DNA of 22,312 bases from a virus: positions 1 through 22,312 of the IMG/VR virus record IMGVR_UViG_3300030101_003089; one strand, given 5' to 3'. The notes beneath the pieces were generated by a model. That model made no database searches. It was not told where the DNA came from and saw only the letters and a program-made list of their open reading frames with translations. A program made the translations under genes and the position numbers. Shown one piece after another: positions 5,920 to 22,306 of the stretch (its first letter is position 1; each line of letters opens with the position of its first letter).

Positions 5920-6588
5920 ATGGCAAATACTACGACAGCTAGTTTAAAACTTACAGTTCAAGCAACAGGAGATAATTCTGGAACATGGGGTCAGATAACT
6001 AATACAAATTTACAAATTTTAGAACAGGCTATAGGTGGTTTTGACACTGTTAGCGCCGCATCTGGTGCTACCTTAACTTTTTCAAATGGTGTATTATCTA
6101 ACGGTAAAAACCAAGTATTAAAATTAACAGGAACTATATCAGGAAATGTTAATGTAGTTATTCCTGATTCTATTGAAAAAACTTATATTGTAGAAAATGC
6201 AACAAGTGGAGCACATACTGTAACTTTTAAAACAAGTTCTGGAACAGGCATTACTTGGGGCACAGCTGATAAAGGTAAAAAAATATTATATTCTGATGGA
6301 ACTAATGTTTTAGAAGCATTAAGTTCAACAGGTGCTTTAAGAGTTTCAGGTCATATCTTACCTGGTGCAAATGATACTTATGATCTAGGAGCTTCCAATA
6401 ATGTTTTTAGAGACATATATACAGGTGACTTACATCTTACTAATAGATTTAAAGAAAAAGGTAACGTGGTCGATGGAACTAAAGGCCACTGGACTTTACA
6501 AGAAGGTGAAAACGATATATTTATGATAAACAATATATCTGGAGAAAAATTTAAAATTAATTTATCCAAGGTAAAAGGAGACTCATAA
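5920..6588 (+). CDS. Tail fibre/tail-tip protein with YDLG-type C-terminal domain
   Basis: This 222-residue protein starts MANTTTASLKLTVQATGDNS and GTWGQITNTNLQILEQAIGG, an N-terminal module common in phage fibre proteins. The middle is beta-rich and contains YIVENATSGAHTVTFKTSSG. The C-terminal part has ILPGANDTYDLGASNNVFRD, then IYTGDLHLTN and a closing block with HWTLQEGENDIFMINN and GEKFKINLSKV, a recurrent tip module of marine phage fibres. There is no clear ribosome site before the ATG, which is preceded by a very A/T-rich 32-base gap. The stop codon overlaps the next ATG as TAATG, so it is co-translated with the collar-domain gene. It probably forms part of the distal tail or adhesion device. 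Confidence 0.75.
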   Translation: MANTTTASLKLTVQATGDNSGTWGQITNTNLQILEQAIGGFDTVSAASGATLTFSNGVLSNGKNQVLKLTGTISGNVNVVIPDSIEKTYIVENATSGAHTVTFKTSSGTGITWGTADKGKKILYSDGTNVLEALSSTGALRVSGHILPGANDTYDLGASNNVFRDIYTGDLHLTNRFKEKGNVVDGTKGHWTLQEGENDIFMINNISGEKFKINLSKVKGDS

Positions 6589-7205
6589 TGGCACTGTTTT
6601 CAGGTGGAACAGAAATGATCAATGCAGGAACTCTTTTAGTAGGAGGAATTCCAACAGCAACTATTGTACCTTGGTCAAAGTCTTCAGTTCCTTCAGGTTT
6701 TTTAGAATGTAATGGAGCAGCTGTTTCAAGATCAACTTATTCAGATTTATTTTCAGCCATAGGCACAACTTATGGTGCAGGTGACGGCTCATCTACTTTT
6801 ACTTTACCAGATCTACAAGATAATGTAGCAATTGGAAAATCAGGAACCAAAGCTTTAGCTTCTACAGGTGGTGCTAATACAGTTGCAAATTCTGGAAGTG
6901 TTTCTGGTACCGTTGGTGACACAGCTTTGACAACAGCTCAACTTCCATCTCATACACACAATCCTGTCAGTGTTACTATAAATAAAAATATTGGATCACA
7001 AGTAGGAGAAAATCAGGCTGGTCAAACAGGGATAGCATCAGTACGTATTTCTAATAATGCTTCTTCACCTCTTACTGGAACTGGAACTGCTGCAAATGCA
7101 GGATCAGGGGATACACACACTCATAGTTTAAGTGCAAATTTTTCTGGAAGTGCAAACTCAGTTGTTCAACCTTATTTAGCATTAATTTATATTATAAAAA
7201 CATAA
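6588..7205 (+). CDS. Phage tail collar domain protein (tail-tip/fibre)
   Basis: Residues about 24-80 match the phage tail collar domain: IVPWSKSSVPSGFLECNGAA, then SRSTYSDLFSAIGTTYGAGD and STFTLPDLQDNVAIG. A low-complexity Ser/Thr/Gly region follows, with two His-x-His motifs (LPSHTHNP and GDTHTHSL). In other phage fibres such HxH motifs sit in the tip and can bind metal. The ending VQPYLALIYIIKT is the characteristic C-terminus of this family. The length of 205 residues is normal for a short collar-domain fibre protein. An AAGGAG site lies inside the end of the preceding gene and the start overlaps its stop. It probably contributes to the receptor-contacting tip of the tail. Confidence 0.88.
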   Translation: MALFSGGTEMINAGTLLVGGIPTATIVPWSKSSVPSGFLECNGAAVSRSTYSDLFSAIGTTYGAGDGSSTFTLPDLQDNVAIGKSGTKALASTGGANTVANSGSVSGTVGDTALTTAQLPSHTHNPVSVTINKNIGSQVGENQAGQTGIASVRISNNASSPLTGTGTAANAGSGDTHTHSLSANFSGSANSVVQPYLALIYIIKT

Positions 7206-7213
7206 GTTTTTAT
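7194..7213. terminator. Possible bidirectional terminator between convergent genes
   Basis: A perfect 8-bp inverted repeat ATAAAAAC-ATAA-GTTTTTAT overlaps the end of the collar gene and lies just before the convergent end of the oxygenase gene. It is followed by T-rich sequence on both strands. The stem has only one G-C pair, so it is weak. The position exactly between two convergent genes is the main argument for it. Confidence 0.35.
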
Positions 7214-7216
7214 TTA

Positions 7217-7837
7217 TTATCTCAACATCATCCAAGAAGTTAAAATATATTTTTCTCCTGATAAAGGTGGATTACCTCTATGAACATAAGGAAAACCTGC
7301 AGGCCAAATAACAATTCTACCTTTTTTTGGTTTTACTCTTTTAGAAAAATGTAAAAATTCTGTTTCTCCACCTTCTTCCACATCATTCAAATATATAGAA
7401 AAAACAAAAGCTCTAGCTGAGGTTTCATAACTTTTTCCATGTTCAACATGCCAAATGTGATAACCTTCAGTAGGTAATGTTTTTTGTATTTTTAAATTAG
7501 TGTAAAAAAATTTATCTATATTATAAGCAGTGCCTGCACCTGTATTCTGTACATAATGTTTCCAAGACATATCATAATTTATTATTATTGTTTTTAAATC
7601 TTCCCACCAAATATTTAAATTACTTGGACTTGCAAAAAACTGTTTATCTTGTTTTTGTGTTATAGGCGAGTTTTCAGAAGACATTCTATCCATTGTATTG
7701 TTAAATTTATTTTGATCTTCAAATAGTTTAATGACTCTATCACACTCTTCAGGTAAAATATAATTATCATACACACCTATAAAATTATTTATATTAATTT
7801 CTCTTTTTATCTTAACAATTGCTTCTAAATCGTTCAT
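7217..7837 (-). CDS. 2-oxoglutarate/Fe(II)-dependent oxygenase (prolyl 4-hydroxylase-like)
   Basis: This 206-residue protein has the double-stranded beta-helix core of the P4H-type 2OG-Fe(II) dioxygenases. The core appears as GYHIWHVEHGKSY, AFVFSIYLNDVEEGGETEFL, then KPKKGRIVIWPAGFPYVHRG and EKYILTSW. Likely iron ligands are H130, E132 and H186, and K196 is placed to bind the 2-oxoglutarate carboxylate. The first motif is H-x-E in place of the common H-x-D. Such enzymes couple decarboxylation of 2-oxoglutarate to hydroxylation of protein, nucleic-acid or small-molecule substrates. The gene is the only minus-strand gene inside the structural region, converging on the collar gene and divergent from the next structural gene, so it needs its own promoter. 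Comparable oxygenases are frequent in marine phages. The substrate is unknown; a virion protein or a modified base are candidates. Confidence 0.88.
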   Translation of the reverse strand: MNDLEAIVKIKREININNFIGVYDNYILPEECDRVIKLFEDQNKFNNTMDRMSSENSPITQKQDKQFFASPSNLNIWWEDLKTIIINYDMSWKHYVQNTGAGTAYNIDKFFYTNLKIQKTLPTEGYHIWHVEHGKSYETSARAFVFSIYLNDVEEGGETEFLHFSKRVKPKKGRIVIWPAGFPYVHRGNPPLSGEKYILTSWMMLR

Positions 7838-7884
7838 TATTATGTTACTTTCTTTATATATAAAATTATTGTATAAGGCATTAT
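7838..7884. promoter_or_regulatory. Divergent intergenic region, probable promoter site(s)
   Basis: This 47-base, very A/T-rich gap separates divergently read genes, so at least the oxygenase and perhaps the nozzle-like gene must be transcribed from here. It contains TATATATAAAATT- and TTGTATAA-like elements. I cannot assign a convincing -35/-10 pair on either strand. An AAGG close to 7875 is a weak ribosome site for the rightward gene. Confidence 0.3.
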
Positions 7885-9837
7885 ATGCTACAAAAATTAA
7901 ATTTCAAGCCTGGTTTTAATAAACAAGTCACAGAGTCGGGAGCAGAGTCTCAATGGATAGATGGAGACTTTGTTAGATTTAGATATGGTCTTCCTGAAAA
8001 AATAGGTGGCTGGTCACAAATTACATCAAATACTTTACCTGGTGCAGCTAGAGCACAACATGCTTTTTCTAGTTTAGCAGGAGAAAAATATGCAGCCATA
8101 GGAACAAGCAAAGGTTTATTTTTATATTATGGAGGAAATTTTTTTGATATTACTCCTTTAGATACAGCTATAACAGGAGCAACTTTTACAGTAACATCAG
8201 GGTCTGCTACAGTTACAGTCAATAAAACAGGTCATGGATTATCTGATGGTGAATATATAACTTTTTCAAGTGTGACTAGTCCTACGAACTCTGGTTATGC
8301 TACTACTTTATTTACAGATAATTCTTTTGAAGTTTTAAATTCACAATCAAATACTTTTCAAATAACAATGCCATCAAACTCTGCAGGAGCTAGTAGTGCT
8401 ACTGGTGCTGCAACAATTAATCCATACATAACAGTTGGTCCATCTGTTCAAACTCCTGGTTATGGTTGGGGTACATCTACATGGGGAGCTAGCACTTGGA
8501 ACACACCTAGAGCAACTACTAACGTAACACTAGATCCAGGTCTTTGGTCTTTAGATAATTTTGGTGAAGTTCTTATTGCAACTGTGCACAATGGTAAAAC
8601 ATTTACATGGAATGCAGGAGCAACTAATGCCAGAACAATTAGAGCCTCTACATCAACATCTGGTTTTTCTACGTCAGCTAATCCAACAGCAAGTAGATTT
8701 ACTTTAGTGTCTGATAGAGATAGACATGTATTTCATTTTGGAACAGAGACAACTATAGGTGATACATCAACACAAGATCCTATGTTTATTAGATTTTCTG
8801 ATCAAGAAAATCTAAACGAGTATACTCCAAAAGCAACAAATACTTCAGGTACTTTTAGACTAGATACAGGTAACGAGATTAGAGGAGCTGTTCAAGGTAA
8901 AGATTACACATTAGTTTTAACAGATAGTGCTGCTTACATTATACAATTTGTTGGAGCACCTTTTACTTTTAGTATAAGACAAGTCGGTACTAACTGCGGA
9001 TTAATTGGACAGAGCGCTTTGAGTTATTCCAACGGTAGTGTTTTTTGGATGTCCGGTGAAGGTGGATTTTTTGTTTATGATGGTACAGTTAAACTTCTTC
9101 CATGTCTTGTAGAGGATTTTGTATTTACAACAGGAGGAGATAATCTAGGTATTAATTACACTGCTGCAGGAATAACTTATGCAGAACATAATAGTTTATA
9201 TAATGAGGTTAGTTGGTTTTATCCTAAAGCCGGATCTACACAAATAGATAGATGTGTTTCATATAATTATGGTGAGAATTGTTGGACAACTAGTTCTCTT
9301 GCAAGATCTACATACATGGATCAAGGGGTGTTTGATCTACCTTATGCAACAGAATATAATAAAACAGCAACTCCTGTTTTTGATATACAAGGAATTACAA
9401 ATACAGCAGGTTCTAGCACATATTATGAACATGAAAAAGGAACTGATCAAGTAAATTCTTCCGGCACCACATCTATTAATGCATTTATTAGATCAGGTGA
9501 TTTTGACATAACTGCAGGAGTAAATAGATCAGGGAAAGCAACAGGAGCTGTTAACTATAGAGGTGATGGTGAATTTTTTATGTCTGTAAAAAGATTCATA
9601 CCAGACTATCAATTAATCTCTGGTAATTCTAAAATAACATTGTTTGTAAATGATTATCCAAATAATACATCTACTAGTTCATCTCTTGGACCCTTTACAG
9701 TTAGTGCTTCTACTGATAAAATAGACACACGTGCTAGAGGACGATTAGTTTCACTTAAAATAGAAAACGATGCTGTAGGTGAAACATGGCGTTATGGAAC
9801 ATTTAGACTTGATGCACAACCAGATGGACGTAGATAA
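7885..9837 (+). CDS. Large neck/tail structural protein, possibly P22 gp10-like
   Basis: This 650-residue protein begins MLQKLNFKPGFNKQVTESGA and ESQWIDGDFVRFRYGLPEKI. I recognise this opening from a widespread marine phage virion protein. The body is beta-rich with repeated blade-like segments, for example YAAIGTSKGLFLYYGGNF, HVFHFGTETTIGD and VFWMSGEGGFFVYDG, which suits a propeller or tail-hub fold. The family has been linked in my memory to podovirus tail nozzle/stabilisation proteins of the P22 gp10 type; that link is tentative. It opens the second plus-strand block and its stop overlaps the next start as TAATG. No enzyme motif or membrane segment is visible. Confidence 0.65.
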   Translation: MLQKLNFKPGFNKQVTESGAESQWIDGDFVRFRYGLPEKIGGWSQITSNTLPGAARAQHAFSSLAGEKYAAIGTSKGLFLYYGGNFFDITPLDTAITGATFTVTSGSATVTVNKTGHGLSDGEYITFSSVTSPTNSGYATTLFTDNSFEVLNSQSNTFQITMPSNSAGASSATGAATINPYITVGPSVQTPGYGWGTSTWGASTWNTPRATTNVTLDPGLWSLDNFGEVLIATVHNGKTFTWNAGATNARTIRASTSTSGFSTSANPTASRFTLVSDRDRHVFHFGTETTIGDTSTQDPMFIRFSDQENLNEYTPKATNTSGTFRLDTGNEIRGAVQGKDYTLVLTDSAAYIIQFVGAPFTFSIRQVGTNCGLIGQSALSYSNGSVFWMSGEGGFFVYDGTVKLLPCLVEDFVFTTGGDNLGINYTAAGITYAEHNSLYNEVSWFYPKAGSTQIDRCVSYNYGENCWTTSSLARSTYMDQGVFDLPYATEYNKTATPVFDIQGITNTAGSSTYYEHEKGTDQVNSSGTTSINAFIRSGDFDITAGVNRSGKATGAVNYRGDGEFFMSVKRFIPDYQLISGNSKITLFVNDYPNNTSTSSSLGPFTVSASTDKIDTRARGRLVSLKIENDAVGETWRYGTFRLDAQPDGRR

Positions 9838-20402: not shown

Positions 20403-20879
20403 ATGCAGTTATCTAGAAACTTTAGTCTACAGGAATTAACTAAATCAGATACAGCTATACGTAAAGGTATTGACAACGAACCTAACGCTGATCAGATAGA
20501 TAAATTAAAATCATTATGTGAAAATATTTTACAGCCAGTACGTGATCAGTTTGGTAGAGTAAAAGTTACTAGCGGCTATCGTAGCCCTGAGCTGTGTGTT
20601 GCCATCGGCAGCTCGATCGGATCACAACATGCAAAAGCTGAGGCGGTTGATTTCGAATGTATGGGAGTTGACAACGCTGAGGTAGCAGACTGGGTTAAAA
20701 TGAACTGTGAAGTAGATCAATTAATTTTGGAGTATTATACTCCTGGTGAGCCTAACTCTGGATGGATACACGCAAGCTATGTACCATTCAATCCAAGACA
20801 TCAATATCTAAGAGCATACAGAGAAGATGGAAAAACTAGATACAAACCAGTTATTGGAAAAGCAGTAGACCTGGTTTAG
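20403..20879 (+). CDS. Endolysin, M15-type D,D-/L,D-carboxypeptidase-like metallopeptidase
   Basis: The 158-residue product matches the peptidase M15_3 family. VTSGYRSPELCVAIGSSIGS is followed by SQHAKAEAVDFECMG and GWIHASYVP. The zinc ligands are probably H76, D83 and H123. The N-terminus (LSRNFSLQELTKSDTA) is the usual start for this family. These enzymes cleave the peptide stems of peptidoglycan; in a phage lysis cassette it would serve as endolysin. It has no signal peptide, so it depends on a holin, which fits its upstream neighbour. The part encoding the active site, nt 20571-20670, is far richer in G+C than the rest of the window (53 of 100 bases by hand count). Its stop overlaps that of the convergent helicase gene by four bases. 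Confidence 0.85.
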   Translation: MQLSRNFSLQELTKSDTAIRKGIDNEPNADQIDKLKSLCENILQPVRDQFGRVKVTSGYRSPELCVAIGSSIGSQHAKAEAVDFECMGVDNAEVADWVKMNCEVDQLILEYYTPGEPNSGWIHASYVPFNPRHQYLRAYREDGKTRYKPVIGKAVDLV

Positions 20880-22306
20880 ATCCAATCTTTTAATTCTTCA
20901 CCCATAACTTCAGATGCAATGTTTATTTTTTTACGTAAAGCTTCTACTATTTTTTCATCAATAGTATCCTCAGCAATGAGATCAATATATGTTACAGTTT
21001 TTTTCTGACCTATTCTATGAGCTCTATCTTCTGATTGTAGTCTTTTTTCTAGATCATATCCATTAGAATAATAAATAACAGTATTAGCTTGTGTAAGCGT
21101 AATACCGTAACCACCTGTTTGAGGTGTACCTACAATAAATCTACATTTAGGATCGTTTTGAAATCTACGTATATAGTTTTGTCTATCTTCTTGTGGTGTC
21201 AAACCATAGTAATGAACGTAAGAATCTTTGCCATATACTTTAATTAATTTCTGTATAATCTCTCCTACACTTAACTGATAGTTAGCCCAGATAATAACTT
21301 TACCCTCAGTATCTTCTAAGATAGACATCAACTCATTAAGTCTATTACTTTCTACTGCTTGAGTTGTACCATCATCAGCTGCTACGTAACCACATGTAAT
21401 TTGATGTAGTCGCATCAGCTGTGTTAACACAGTCATGGTAGTTGTAACTTTACCATTGAGCACAGCTATAGCTGCTTTCTTCATCTGTTCATAAACTTTC
21501 TTTTGTTCTGGTGTAAGTGTTACATGACGTTTGATAAATACTTTAGGTGGTAGATCTAAACAATCTTCTTTTAATACTCTGTAAGAAAATTGTTTTACTG
21601 TATCAGATAACTCGCTTAAATTTTGAAACTTATCAACTACCTGGATAGAACGTCCATGCACATGCATCGTTTTCATTTCAGCATACCTATTACGAAACGC
21701 GTAGTAAGAACTAAAGTCCAATAACCACGGATCAAGGAACTCACATTGTGTGTACAAATCCAACGGGTTTTTTGTAATAGGAGAACCTGTCATTATTCTT
21801 TTATACTTTGCATGTTTACCAATACCTATTATGTTTTTAGTTCTTCTTGCAGACGGTGTTTTGATAGTTGTTGATTCATCAATGGCCATCATAGCTTTGT
21901 GAGTATTAATAAATTTACTAGCAAATTTAACACCTTTATCTGTAGATAACGCTTCAACATTCATAACTAAAATATGAAACGCAGATTCTATTTCAAACAA
22001 AGATTCTAATTTTTCTCTTTGAGTTTTTGTAATATTTGGTTGCCACAATACAGACACATTTTCTATATGGTCTGGCAAATGTGTAGGTAGTTCTTGTTCA
22101 TACCAAGTTTTAACAACACCTTTTGGTGCAATAATTAAAGCACCATCTATCTTGCCTTTGTCATACAACATAGCAATATTATCTATTAATACTTTTGTTT
22201 TGCCTGTACCCATTTCCATAAAGTAAGCAAAGTTTTCTTTGTTCCACGATTTTTCCAACGCAGTTAATTGATGTGCGTATGGTTTAGTTTTAAATTTATA
22301 ATTCAT
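20876..22306 (-). CDS. SNF2-family DNA helicase/translocase, compact phage type
   Basis: The 476-residue protein begins MNYKFKTKPYAHQLTALEKS, a typical Q-motif-like start. It then has Walker A MGTGKT (32-37), a DEST Walker B/motif II (143-146), motif III MTGSP (172-176), motif V GGYGITLTQA (398-407) and motif VI QSEDRAHRIGQ (424-434). This is the SNF2 superfamily-2 core without extra domains. Phage copies of this size are thought to act in replication, recombination or transcription switching as dsDNA-dependent ATPases. An upstream start cannot be fully excluded because only six bases lie beyond the ATG, but the present start gives a natural N-terminus. The gene faces the late operon and shares four bases with the endolysin stop. 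Two weak nested inverted repeats at 20844-20886 might help end transcription. Confidence 0.88.
   Translation of the reverse strand: MNYKFKTKPYAHQLTALEKSWNKENFAYFMEMGTGKTKVLIDNIAMLYDKGKIDGALIIAPKGVVKTWYEQELPTHLPDHIENVSVLWQPNITKTQREKLESLFEIESAFHILVMNVEALSTDKGVKFASKFINTHKAMMAIDESTTIKTPSARRTKNIIGIGKHAKYKRIMTGSPITKNPLDLYTQCEFLDPWLLDFSSYYAFRNRYAEMKTMHVHGRSIQVVDKFQNLSELSDTVKQFSYRVLKEDCLDLPPKVFIKRHVTLTPEQKKVYEQMKKAAIAVLNGKVTTTMTVLTQLMRLHQITCGYVAADDGTTQAVESNRLNELMSILEDTEGKVIIWANYQLSVGEIIQKLIKVYGKDSYVHYYGLTPQEDRQNYIRRFQNDPKCRFIVGTPQTGGYGITLTQANTVIYYSNGYDLEKRLQSEDRAHRIGQKKTVTYIDLIAEDTIDEKIVEALRKKINIASEVMGEELKDWI

Follow-up and report, generated by a model that had tools for sequence, protein, structure and literature searches.

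The minus-strand gene at positions 7217–7837 of the window (the whole 22,312-base virus record that was analysed) encodes a predicted Fe(II)/2OG oxygenase of the prolyl 4-hydroxylase (P4H) clade, and this gene is the one constant member of a cassette that runs against the surrounding tail genes. In the loci sampled, the oxygenase is constantly paired with a tail-collar-type gene. Our best explanation, to which we give a probability of about 0.5, is that the protein is a hydroxylase with an H-x-E iron motif, kept as the constant member of its cassette, and that it most likely hydroxylates a protein of the host-recognition interface.

The open reading frame consists of 206 codons plus a stop, and the preliminary description's reading of it as a genuine gene for a P4H-like oxygenase is upheld by its family and fold matches, its residue conservation and its low dN/dS. 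The 206-residue protein matches PF13640 (E 2.5e-11), its 44.8 bits lying above the curated Pfam cut-off of 27, and its best match of 5 families is PHROG 61 (phrog_61, E 1.9e-48). Sequence comparison thus gives good support to placing it among the Fe(II)/2OG oxygenases of the P4H clade, with a predicted activity to match. The protein also matches the second half of phrog_3531, labelled ‘ferrochelatase’, and a PADLOC ‘2OG’ model (E 7.5e-16), which describes an 81-residue CRISPR-associated domain. The ortholog and best match among phage records, 464 of which match the protein, is gp73 of pelagiphage HTVC027P (70.8% identity). Gene order in the window is that of HTVC027P in this region, and the virus is an HTVC023P-type pelagiphage. 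A scan of viral contigs gave at least 599 relatives (599 of the 600 listed stretches encode one), of which the best 80 were retained, and further relatives are found in bacterial genomes, among them those of picocyanobacteria, Massilia and Alteromonas. Comparison with 8 orthologs gave dN/dS values of 0.22–0.29 for the window gene, and all 15 pairs computed fell below 0.35.

Structure prediction, proposed earlier as a check, returned a P4H-like fold, but neither model resolved the metal site in three dimensions. A first, poorer model gave Foldseek TM-scores (by query) of 0.42–0.57, with an E value of 2.5e-8 and TM-scores of 0.46 and 0.48 to Bacillus anthracis P4H. The second model, built from 56 sequences, had a mean pLDDT of 81.6 and a pTM of 0.84, and aligned in VIA-align with the algal P4H bound to (Ser-Pro)5 (3gze; Z 18.0, 2.8 Å over 170 residues), with the Pseudomonas putida P4H:EF-Tu complex (4iw3; Z 17.9, 3.2 Å over 180 residues) and with several PHD2 entries (Z of 17 or more); Z differences below 1 were treated as ties. 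The best listed matches are mostly prolyl and lysyl hydroxylases, with prolyl hydroxylases foremost, and the models are consistent with a P4H-type double-stranded beta-helix, a fold that makes a protein substrate likely. Because the H130–E132 loop is weak in both models (pLDDT below 50 for residues 129–136 in the first; averages of 69 and 63 for blocks 121–130 and 131–140 in the second), the metal site rests on conservation. The window protein has its predicted fold and its C-terminal motif in common with the named prolyl hydroxylases of B. anthracis (3itq) and P. putida (4iw3), for both of which the substrate is known; identity in the structural alignments is 28–29% to the B. anthracis entries and 14% to 4iw3. 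The first motif of both these enzymes is H-x-D. A viral collagen prolyl hydroxylase, PBCV-1 vCPH (5c5t), is likewise a virus-encoded P4H of similar size (Foldseek E 3.8e-8), but comes from a eukaryotic virus; it acts on peptide substrates.

The putative iron site is correctly numbered in the preliminary description. By sequence, H130 and E132 (codons at 7442–7450, minus strand) would provide the first and second iron ligands and H186 (7280–7282, minus strand) the third, and K196 (7250–7252, minus strand), 10 residues after H186, is the likely 2OG anchor. H130, E132, R142, Y149, H186 and K196 are invariant in all 72 non-redundant orthologs, the window counted in. In an alignment of 56 sequences (30 orthologs, 2 paralogs and 24 cyanophage-type relatives), H130, E132, R142 and H186 are again invariant and K196 is present in at least 90%. 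Every one of the 72 orthologs therefore appears to hold two histidines, one carboxylate and a Lys/Arg anchor, and every one has Glu where a strict prolyl 4-hydroxylase would be expected to have the Asp of H-x-D. The carboxylate position is also Glu in all 66 collar-anchored orthologs. Among cyanophage-type relatives, H-x-E was printed in 37 of the 39 non-redundant sequences drawn from 53 of 80 loci; in the other two a loose pattern had caught another spot, and one of these (L239) belongs to the 56-sequence alignment in which H130 and E132 are invariant. In bacterial genomes a strict pattern was found in 20 of 80 loci and a loose one in 36 of 73, always with Glu, the remaining 37 having no match and hence being unread. 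H-x-E is, on these sequences, the rule within the subfamily, including the cyanophage and bacterial members in which the motif was found. The earlier suspicion that it marks something odd can be dropped, and the D/E alignment that had been proposed gave a subfamily-wide answer, although a search for a characterised member of the H-x-E subfamily found none.

Two other assignments of the first ligand were considered. Sequence alignments with B. anthracis P4H were shifted to H127, but no acid stands at +2 of this residue, and H130-x-E132 was therefore kept as the ligand pair. Another alignment, containing PKHD-like rows, scored H133 rather than H130 as invariant; we think that those rows are probably set three residues off. 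Glu is reported as the sole residue that can replace Asp414, the H-x-D aspartate of human P4H, with activity kept (PMC2767507). The Phold paper describes phage proteins resembling human EGLN3 that have two conserved histidines and ‘glutamine’ as the next most conserved triad residue (PMC12774648), a word that in our own reading was meant for glutamate.

The oxygenase gene lies between a tail-collar-type gene (6588–7205, plus strand; PHROG tail and tail-collar matches), its partner in 66 of 66 intervals, and a gene for a virion structural protein, which we call stab (7885–9837, plus strand; phrog_3287, E 1.2e-81), from which it is separated by an upstream gap of 47 nt (7838–7884). The preliminary description had it alone on the opposite strand. 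It is indeed the only minus-strand gene inside the tail module, but an ORF at 20876–22306 is also on the minus strand, and the same slot in relatives holds several genes. The ORF at 20876–22306 is helicase-like, as named by eye, and the helicase gp06 of HTVC027P runs with structural genes. A stab gene suited to the comparison was present in 149 of the 161 loci used, and the genes adjoining it were on the opposite strand in 82, in the sense orientation in 62 and undecided in 5. Seventy-one of the 82 opposite-strand runs were complete to the collar gene, with 1 to 9 genes each; both one-gene runs are the window's sister contig, and relatives have 2–9. These run and arrangement counts include overlapping or identical contigs repeatedly; L001, L084 and L325, for example, turn out to be a single contig, whose reported matches to the window show 100% identity.

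All opposite-strand runs together contain 335 genes in 35 clusters, ten of which (0, 1, 3, 5, 9, 12, 13, 14, 15 and 20), judged by their representatives, score above a Pfam cut-off for 2OG or JmjC families. These ten hold 208 of the 335 genes, or 127 of 254 without cluster 0, which had guided the choice of about half of the loci. Other cassette genes encode a carbamoyltransferase, a methyltransferase and a tryptophan halogenase, the last being a flavoprotein of tryptophan-halogenase type (L029:3596–5014; PF04820, E 1.6e-90) seen in one opposite-strand cassette. Beside the cassettes of five loci (L003, L004, L005, L012 and L018), three collar-type genes lie close together. Eight non-orthologous 2OG genes, often near each other, had already been reported in this phage group (PMC9599517). 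The group's wealth of oxygenases is thus known; the opposite-strand cassette with one constant member appears to be a new form of phage cargo in a variable region for host recognition, and neither the cassette nor the constant pairing was found described in the literature passages searched.

Phages of the sense arrangement carry related oxygenase families between their fibre and stab genes, nearly all on the sense strand, and 116 of 266 such genes match cassette clusters (62 sense loci, 60 of them in L084–L163). The member shown of one cluster of 7 genes from these loci reads H-x-E. A further small cassette protein, cluster 2 (31 genes; for example L045:4463–4993), matches PHROG ‘ferrochelatase’ models (phrog_2954, E 9.6e-41); yet at E 1 no ferrochelatase model of Pfam matched any of 18 members, and three residues (H90, D92 and H136) are invariant, so the label may be wrong. 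This motif alone suggests a 2OG enzyme: profile comparisons were unsupportive (probability 0.5 and 0.3) and a PDB profile search gave nothing useful. Two pelagiphage papers consider ferrochelatases as partner enzymes of 2OG oxygenases (PMC9599517, PMC11561400), and we infer that these are the cluster 2 family.

All frequencies of the oxygenase were taken solely from samples chosen by other genes. In the collar-anchored sample, made up of the best 80 collar matches, 66 loci reach the stab gene, and the oxygenase is present in all 66 of these intervals (49 of 49 when near-duplicates are removed); some contigs recur across samples. In the 14 loci that do not reach stab, the oxygenase was seen in 8 and not in 6. 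The survey looked for 22 clusters between collar and stab, and the next commonest cassette family occurs in 32 of the 66 intervals (23 of the 49). Each of the other 16 cassette families seen is absent from at least half of the 66 intervals, whereas the oxygenase is absent from none. Counted from the collar, the oxygenase comes first among the recognised cassette genes in 31 of the 66 and first or second in 63. The stab-anchored sample contained 15 opposite-strand runs, of which 11 are complete, one of them being the window's sister contig; the oxygenase family is present in all 11, with the next families in 8 and 6, and was not shown in the 4 incomplete runs. The fibre gene is reached in 26 of the 60 sense loci anchored on stab; a collar homolog and an ortholog of above 50% identity were each seen in one of the 60. 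Both were shown in L158, which an extra ORF had put into the sense class. The synteny comparison suggested earlier, of loci with and without the gene, found no gene-free locus in the 66 collar-to-stab intervals among the best 80 collar matches. We also looked for extra co-evolution of oxygenase and collar through distance correlations in 45 loci. These were no higher for the collar (r 0.40) than for stab (0.46), with partial correlations of 0.17 and 0.31, and extra co-evolution was not found.

HTVC027P gp73, like the window gene, lies on the opposite strand between collar gene gp70 and stab homolog gp75, but is flanked by gp74 and gp72 of the same cassette, whereas the window gene is on its own and has foreign first 11 codons. 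A close relative of the window, L088, indicates how this one-gene form may have arisen. Its cassette has three genes, encoding a PKHD-like oxygenase, a second small protein and the 2OG oxygenase. The first 33 nt of the window gene (7805–7837, minus strand) match the start of the L088 PKHD-like gene at 30 of 33 positions and the stretch before codon 3 of the L088 2OG gene at only 12 of 33, whereas over the 90 nt that follow, identity is 86 of 90 to the 2OG gene, beginning at its codon 3, and 31 of 90 to the PKHD-like gene. The two loci differ by about 1,030 bases (1,057 between the start codons, plus 6, minus 33). We read this, from the sequences, as a deletion of about 1.03 kb that fused the PKHD-like start in frame to the 2OG gene, with loss of the PKHD-like and second small genes; our reason is that a PKHD-like gene standing first usually has this start (17 of 24). 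The fused start was found in one of 8 non-redundant family members in first position and in none of 65 in later positions, and was seen in no lineage but that of the window. This fusion accounts for the fact that matches to most orthologs begin only near residue 10. A leader peptide kept by whichever gene comes first was also considered, and outside the PKHD cluster it is weak: 2 of 48 genes in first position show it, compared with 0 of 207 further on (p 0.03). The window gene is therefore not the self-contained lone insert of the preliminary description, and is better seen as the last gene of a larger cassette, fused to its neighbour's start.

Upstream of the gene, the gap noticed earlier proves to be a conserved 47-nt leader with a promoter-like site. 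The leader (7838–7884, minus strand) is identical to that of L088 at 46 of 47 positions and contains a GAAAG block resembling a ribosome site (7848–7852). The leader form AATGAAAG is present in 51 of 69 antisense against one of 49 sense loci, the window reading AAAGAAAG at this site; a TTATATA...TGAAAG leader is common to other antisense loci (35 of 69, against one of 49 sense). A sigma70-like candidate promoter, TTGAAA-N16-TATAAT (7880–7907, minus strand), overlaps the start of the divergent structural gene. It is the single exact match in the window, where 0.03 are expected, and such a match was present in 3 of 100 shuffles. It is also linked to the antisense arrangement: among non-redundant loci, 26 of 60 antisense but none of 48 sense ones have TTGAAA plus TATA[AG]T in this position (p 2e-8); here and in the count for TTGAAA alone, relatedness between the phages is ignored. 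This sample derives from 142 of the 149 loci, which gave 110 distinct stretches, two of them undecided; in the other 7 (5 antisense) no start was found by pattern. TTGAAA alone is found in 34 of 46 antisense against 6 of 46 sense MLQKL-type starts, a difference that depends partly on codon choice in the divergent gene. The exact promoter is not a universal feature, the −35/−10 pair being missing in 34 of the 60 antisense loci, and a general promoter scan came out near chance (10 sites where 8.8 were expected and, in the window when up to 2 mismatches were allowed, 15 where 11.5 were expected). Two loci (L014 and L073) have another version of stab, yet retain the usual stab start stretch with its promoter-like site, likely a recombination scar. 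HTVC027P has no RNA polymerase gene and relies on that of its host (PMC12753301), with which a host-type promoter at the cassette would fit.

At the convergent end, the hairpin that had been reported exists as an 8-bp A/T stem (7194–7213), but it is weak, is not conserved and has no support as a terminator. The folding energy of a 61-nt stretch here is −4.1 kcal/mol for the plus strand, a value equalled or bettered by 20 of 200 shuffles (z −1.45); for the strand of the gene it is −6.4, equalled or bettered by 26 of 200 (z −1.09). Hairpins at the same junction in 61 loci are near control level (mean z −0.36 and −0.39; −0.19 for 160 control stretches), and 7 of the 61 have stems of at least 7, as do 19 of the 160 controls; a search for a terminator-like site found none. 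The preliminary description had further supposed that the gene may be expressed at another time than the fibres. A search of the text on the HTVC027P infection transcriptome (PMC12753301) for the timing of gp73 found none. Three genes, gp30, gp33 and gp34, have odd timing in this transcriptome, and all three are on the opposite strand in HTVC027P (L324), which by analogy is a hint in favour of separate timing.

Phage morons are recognised by an empty site in relatives, a promoter and a terminator of their own, and a base composition apart from that of their neighbours. Like the morons of tailed phages, the window gene is cargo that runs counter to the late genes, as the earlier description had it, and is low in G+C; it also has a candidate promoter upstream. 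Its G+C content of 27.2% is the lowest among 11 genes measured and compares with 33.8% for the window, in which only 1.2% of 621-nt stretches reach a value as low. Unlike morons, it has no conserved terminator, relatives have several genes in the slot with one of them constant, and no insertion between genes that are adjacent in relatives was observed among the best 80 collar matches.

A role at the recognition interface is what the constant pairing suggests. We propose that the protein would be an Fe(II)/2OG hydroxylase of the P4H clade in which Glu replaces Asp as the carboxylate ligand, and that HTVC023P-type pelagiphages of the collar type would encode it in their host-recognition module, as the one gene common to their opposite-strand cassettes. 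The cassette would be transcribed from its own leader by the host RNA polymerase, the enzyme would most likely act on one of the recognition-interface proteins, among which the adjacent collar protein would be the first candidate, and this tail-tip type would always be inherited with its enzyme. Hydroxylation of the collar is what we infer from the pairing; the in-frame retention of the oxygenase after the deletion of about 1.03 kb also counts for this explanation. Fe(II) oxygenases were found among the host-recognition genes of marine phage islands (8 of 390) in a 2014 survey (PMC3909814). Several points speak against it. The opposite orientation argues against simple co-expression with the late tail genes, and relatives occur in Massilia, Alteromonas and other bacteria, where a phage tail target is not expected. 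Cyanophage 2OG-Fe(II) oxygenases of PHROG 61, such as CPPG_00178 of P-RSM1, belong to the same subfamily (33–40% identity in 24 relatives) and share with the window protein the pattern EG-Y/F-H-x-W/F-H-x-E...H...K, but the P-RSM1 gene sits elsewhere: flanked by zwf and, near uvsY, a gp3-like gene, it has the same direction as its neighbours. Finally, collar and oxygenase are near neighbours, and linkage alone could explain their pairing. If so, the gene might be a passenger of generic metabolic function, unrelated to tails and kept beside the collar by a recombination hot spot, as would suit the lack of any excess in the collar distance correlations and the related enzyme families between fibre and stab in sense-arrangement phages (116 of 266 genes). 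We consider this improbable, given that the 16 other families seen are each missing from half or more of the 66 intervals and the oxygenase from none, and that dN/dS is below 0.35 in all 15 pairs.

Substrates away from the virion were weighed as well. The cassette enzymes might tailor secreted compounds or the glycans of the host envelope, for instance so as to keep competing phages out, with the H-x-E enzyme as one of several oxidative steps. The carbamoyltransferase, methyltransferase and flavin-type halogenase of other cassettes and a glycosyltransferase in the window would suit such a role, as would a Prochlorococcus relative (L253) that lies in one gene run with a DAHP-type synthase, a GT8-like gene and a cytidylyltransferase. 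Nevertheless, the companions vary while the oxygenase is constant, the best listed fold matches are protein hydroxylases, and the few Massilia and Alteromonas loci listed share no glycan neighbourhood by eye, which leaves this role unlikely in our estimation. A protein substrate of another kind, EF-Tu or a ribosomal protein hydroxylated as by bacterial P4Hs in a way that steers host translation, is suggested by the structural matches to the P. putida P4H:EF-Tu complex and to an entry for B. anthracis P4H whose title has it modifying EF-Tu. Such comparisons, however, give similar scores to many proteins of the P4H fold, and a constant pairing with one tail-tip type is not what this role predicts; we hold out little hope for it. 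AlkB-like repair or modification of DNA or nucleotides was proposed for P4H-domain genes of Syn9 near uvsY and uvsX (PMC2984593), and the P-RSM1 relative likewise lies near uvsY and uvsW, but the window gene is in a tail module and its best listed fold matches are mostly prolyl and lysyl hydroxylases, making such an activity very improbable here.

A more specific form of our preferred reading, that of a hydroxylase acting at the recognition interface, would make the H-x-E enzyme the dedicated maturation enzyme of one receptor-binding tail-tip type. Its independently expressed, O2-dependent hydroxylation would set or tune adsorption, and phages with this collar would have to carry the enzyme. 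We offer this tentatively, as a rather unlikely proposal; if it were true, the variable oxygenases around the constant one would be swappable modifiers of the same recognition interface. In the one-gene cassette of the window, nature has in effect removed the other members and kept the oxygenase. 2OG oxygenases are frequent accessory genes of marine phages, and the literature searched offers no tested substrate for them; it includes a remark on iron demand for gp73 (PMC12753301) and one on collagen-like tail fibres for viral P4H genes (PMC9301287). With a constant pairing to one tail-tip gene, and with HTVC027P in culture on HTCC1062, what has been an ‘auxiliary metabolic gene’ may become a testable case of virion protein hydroxylation.
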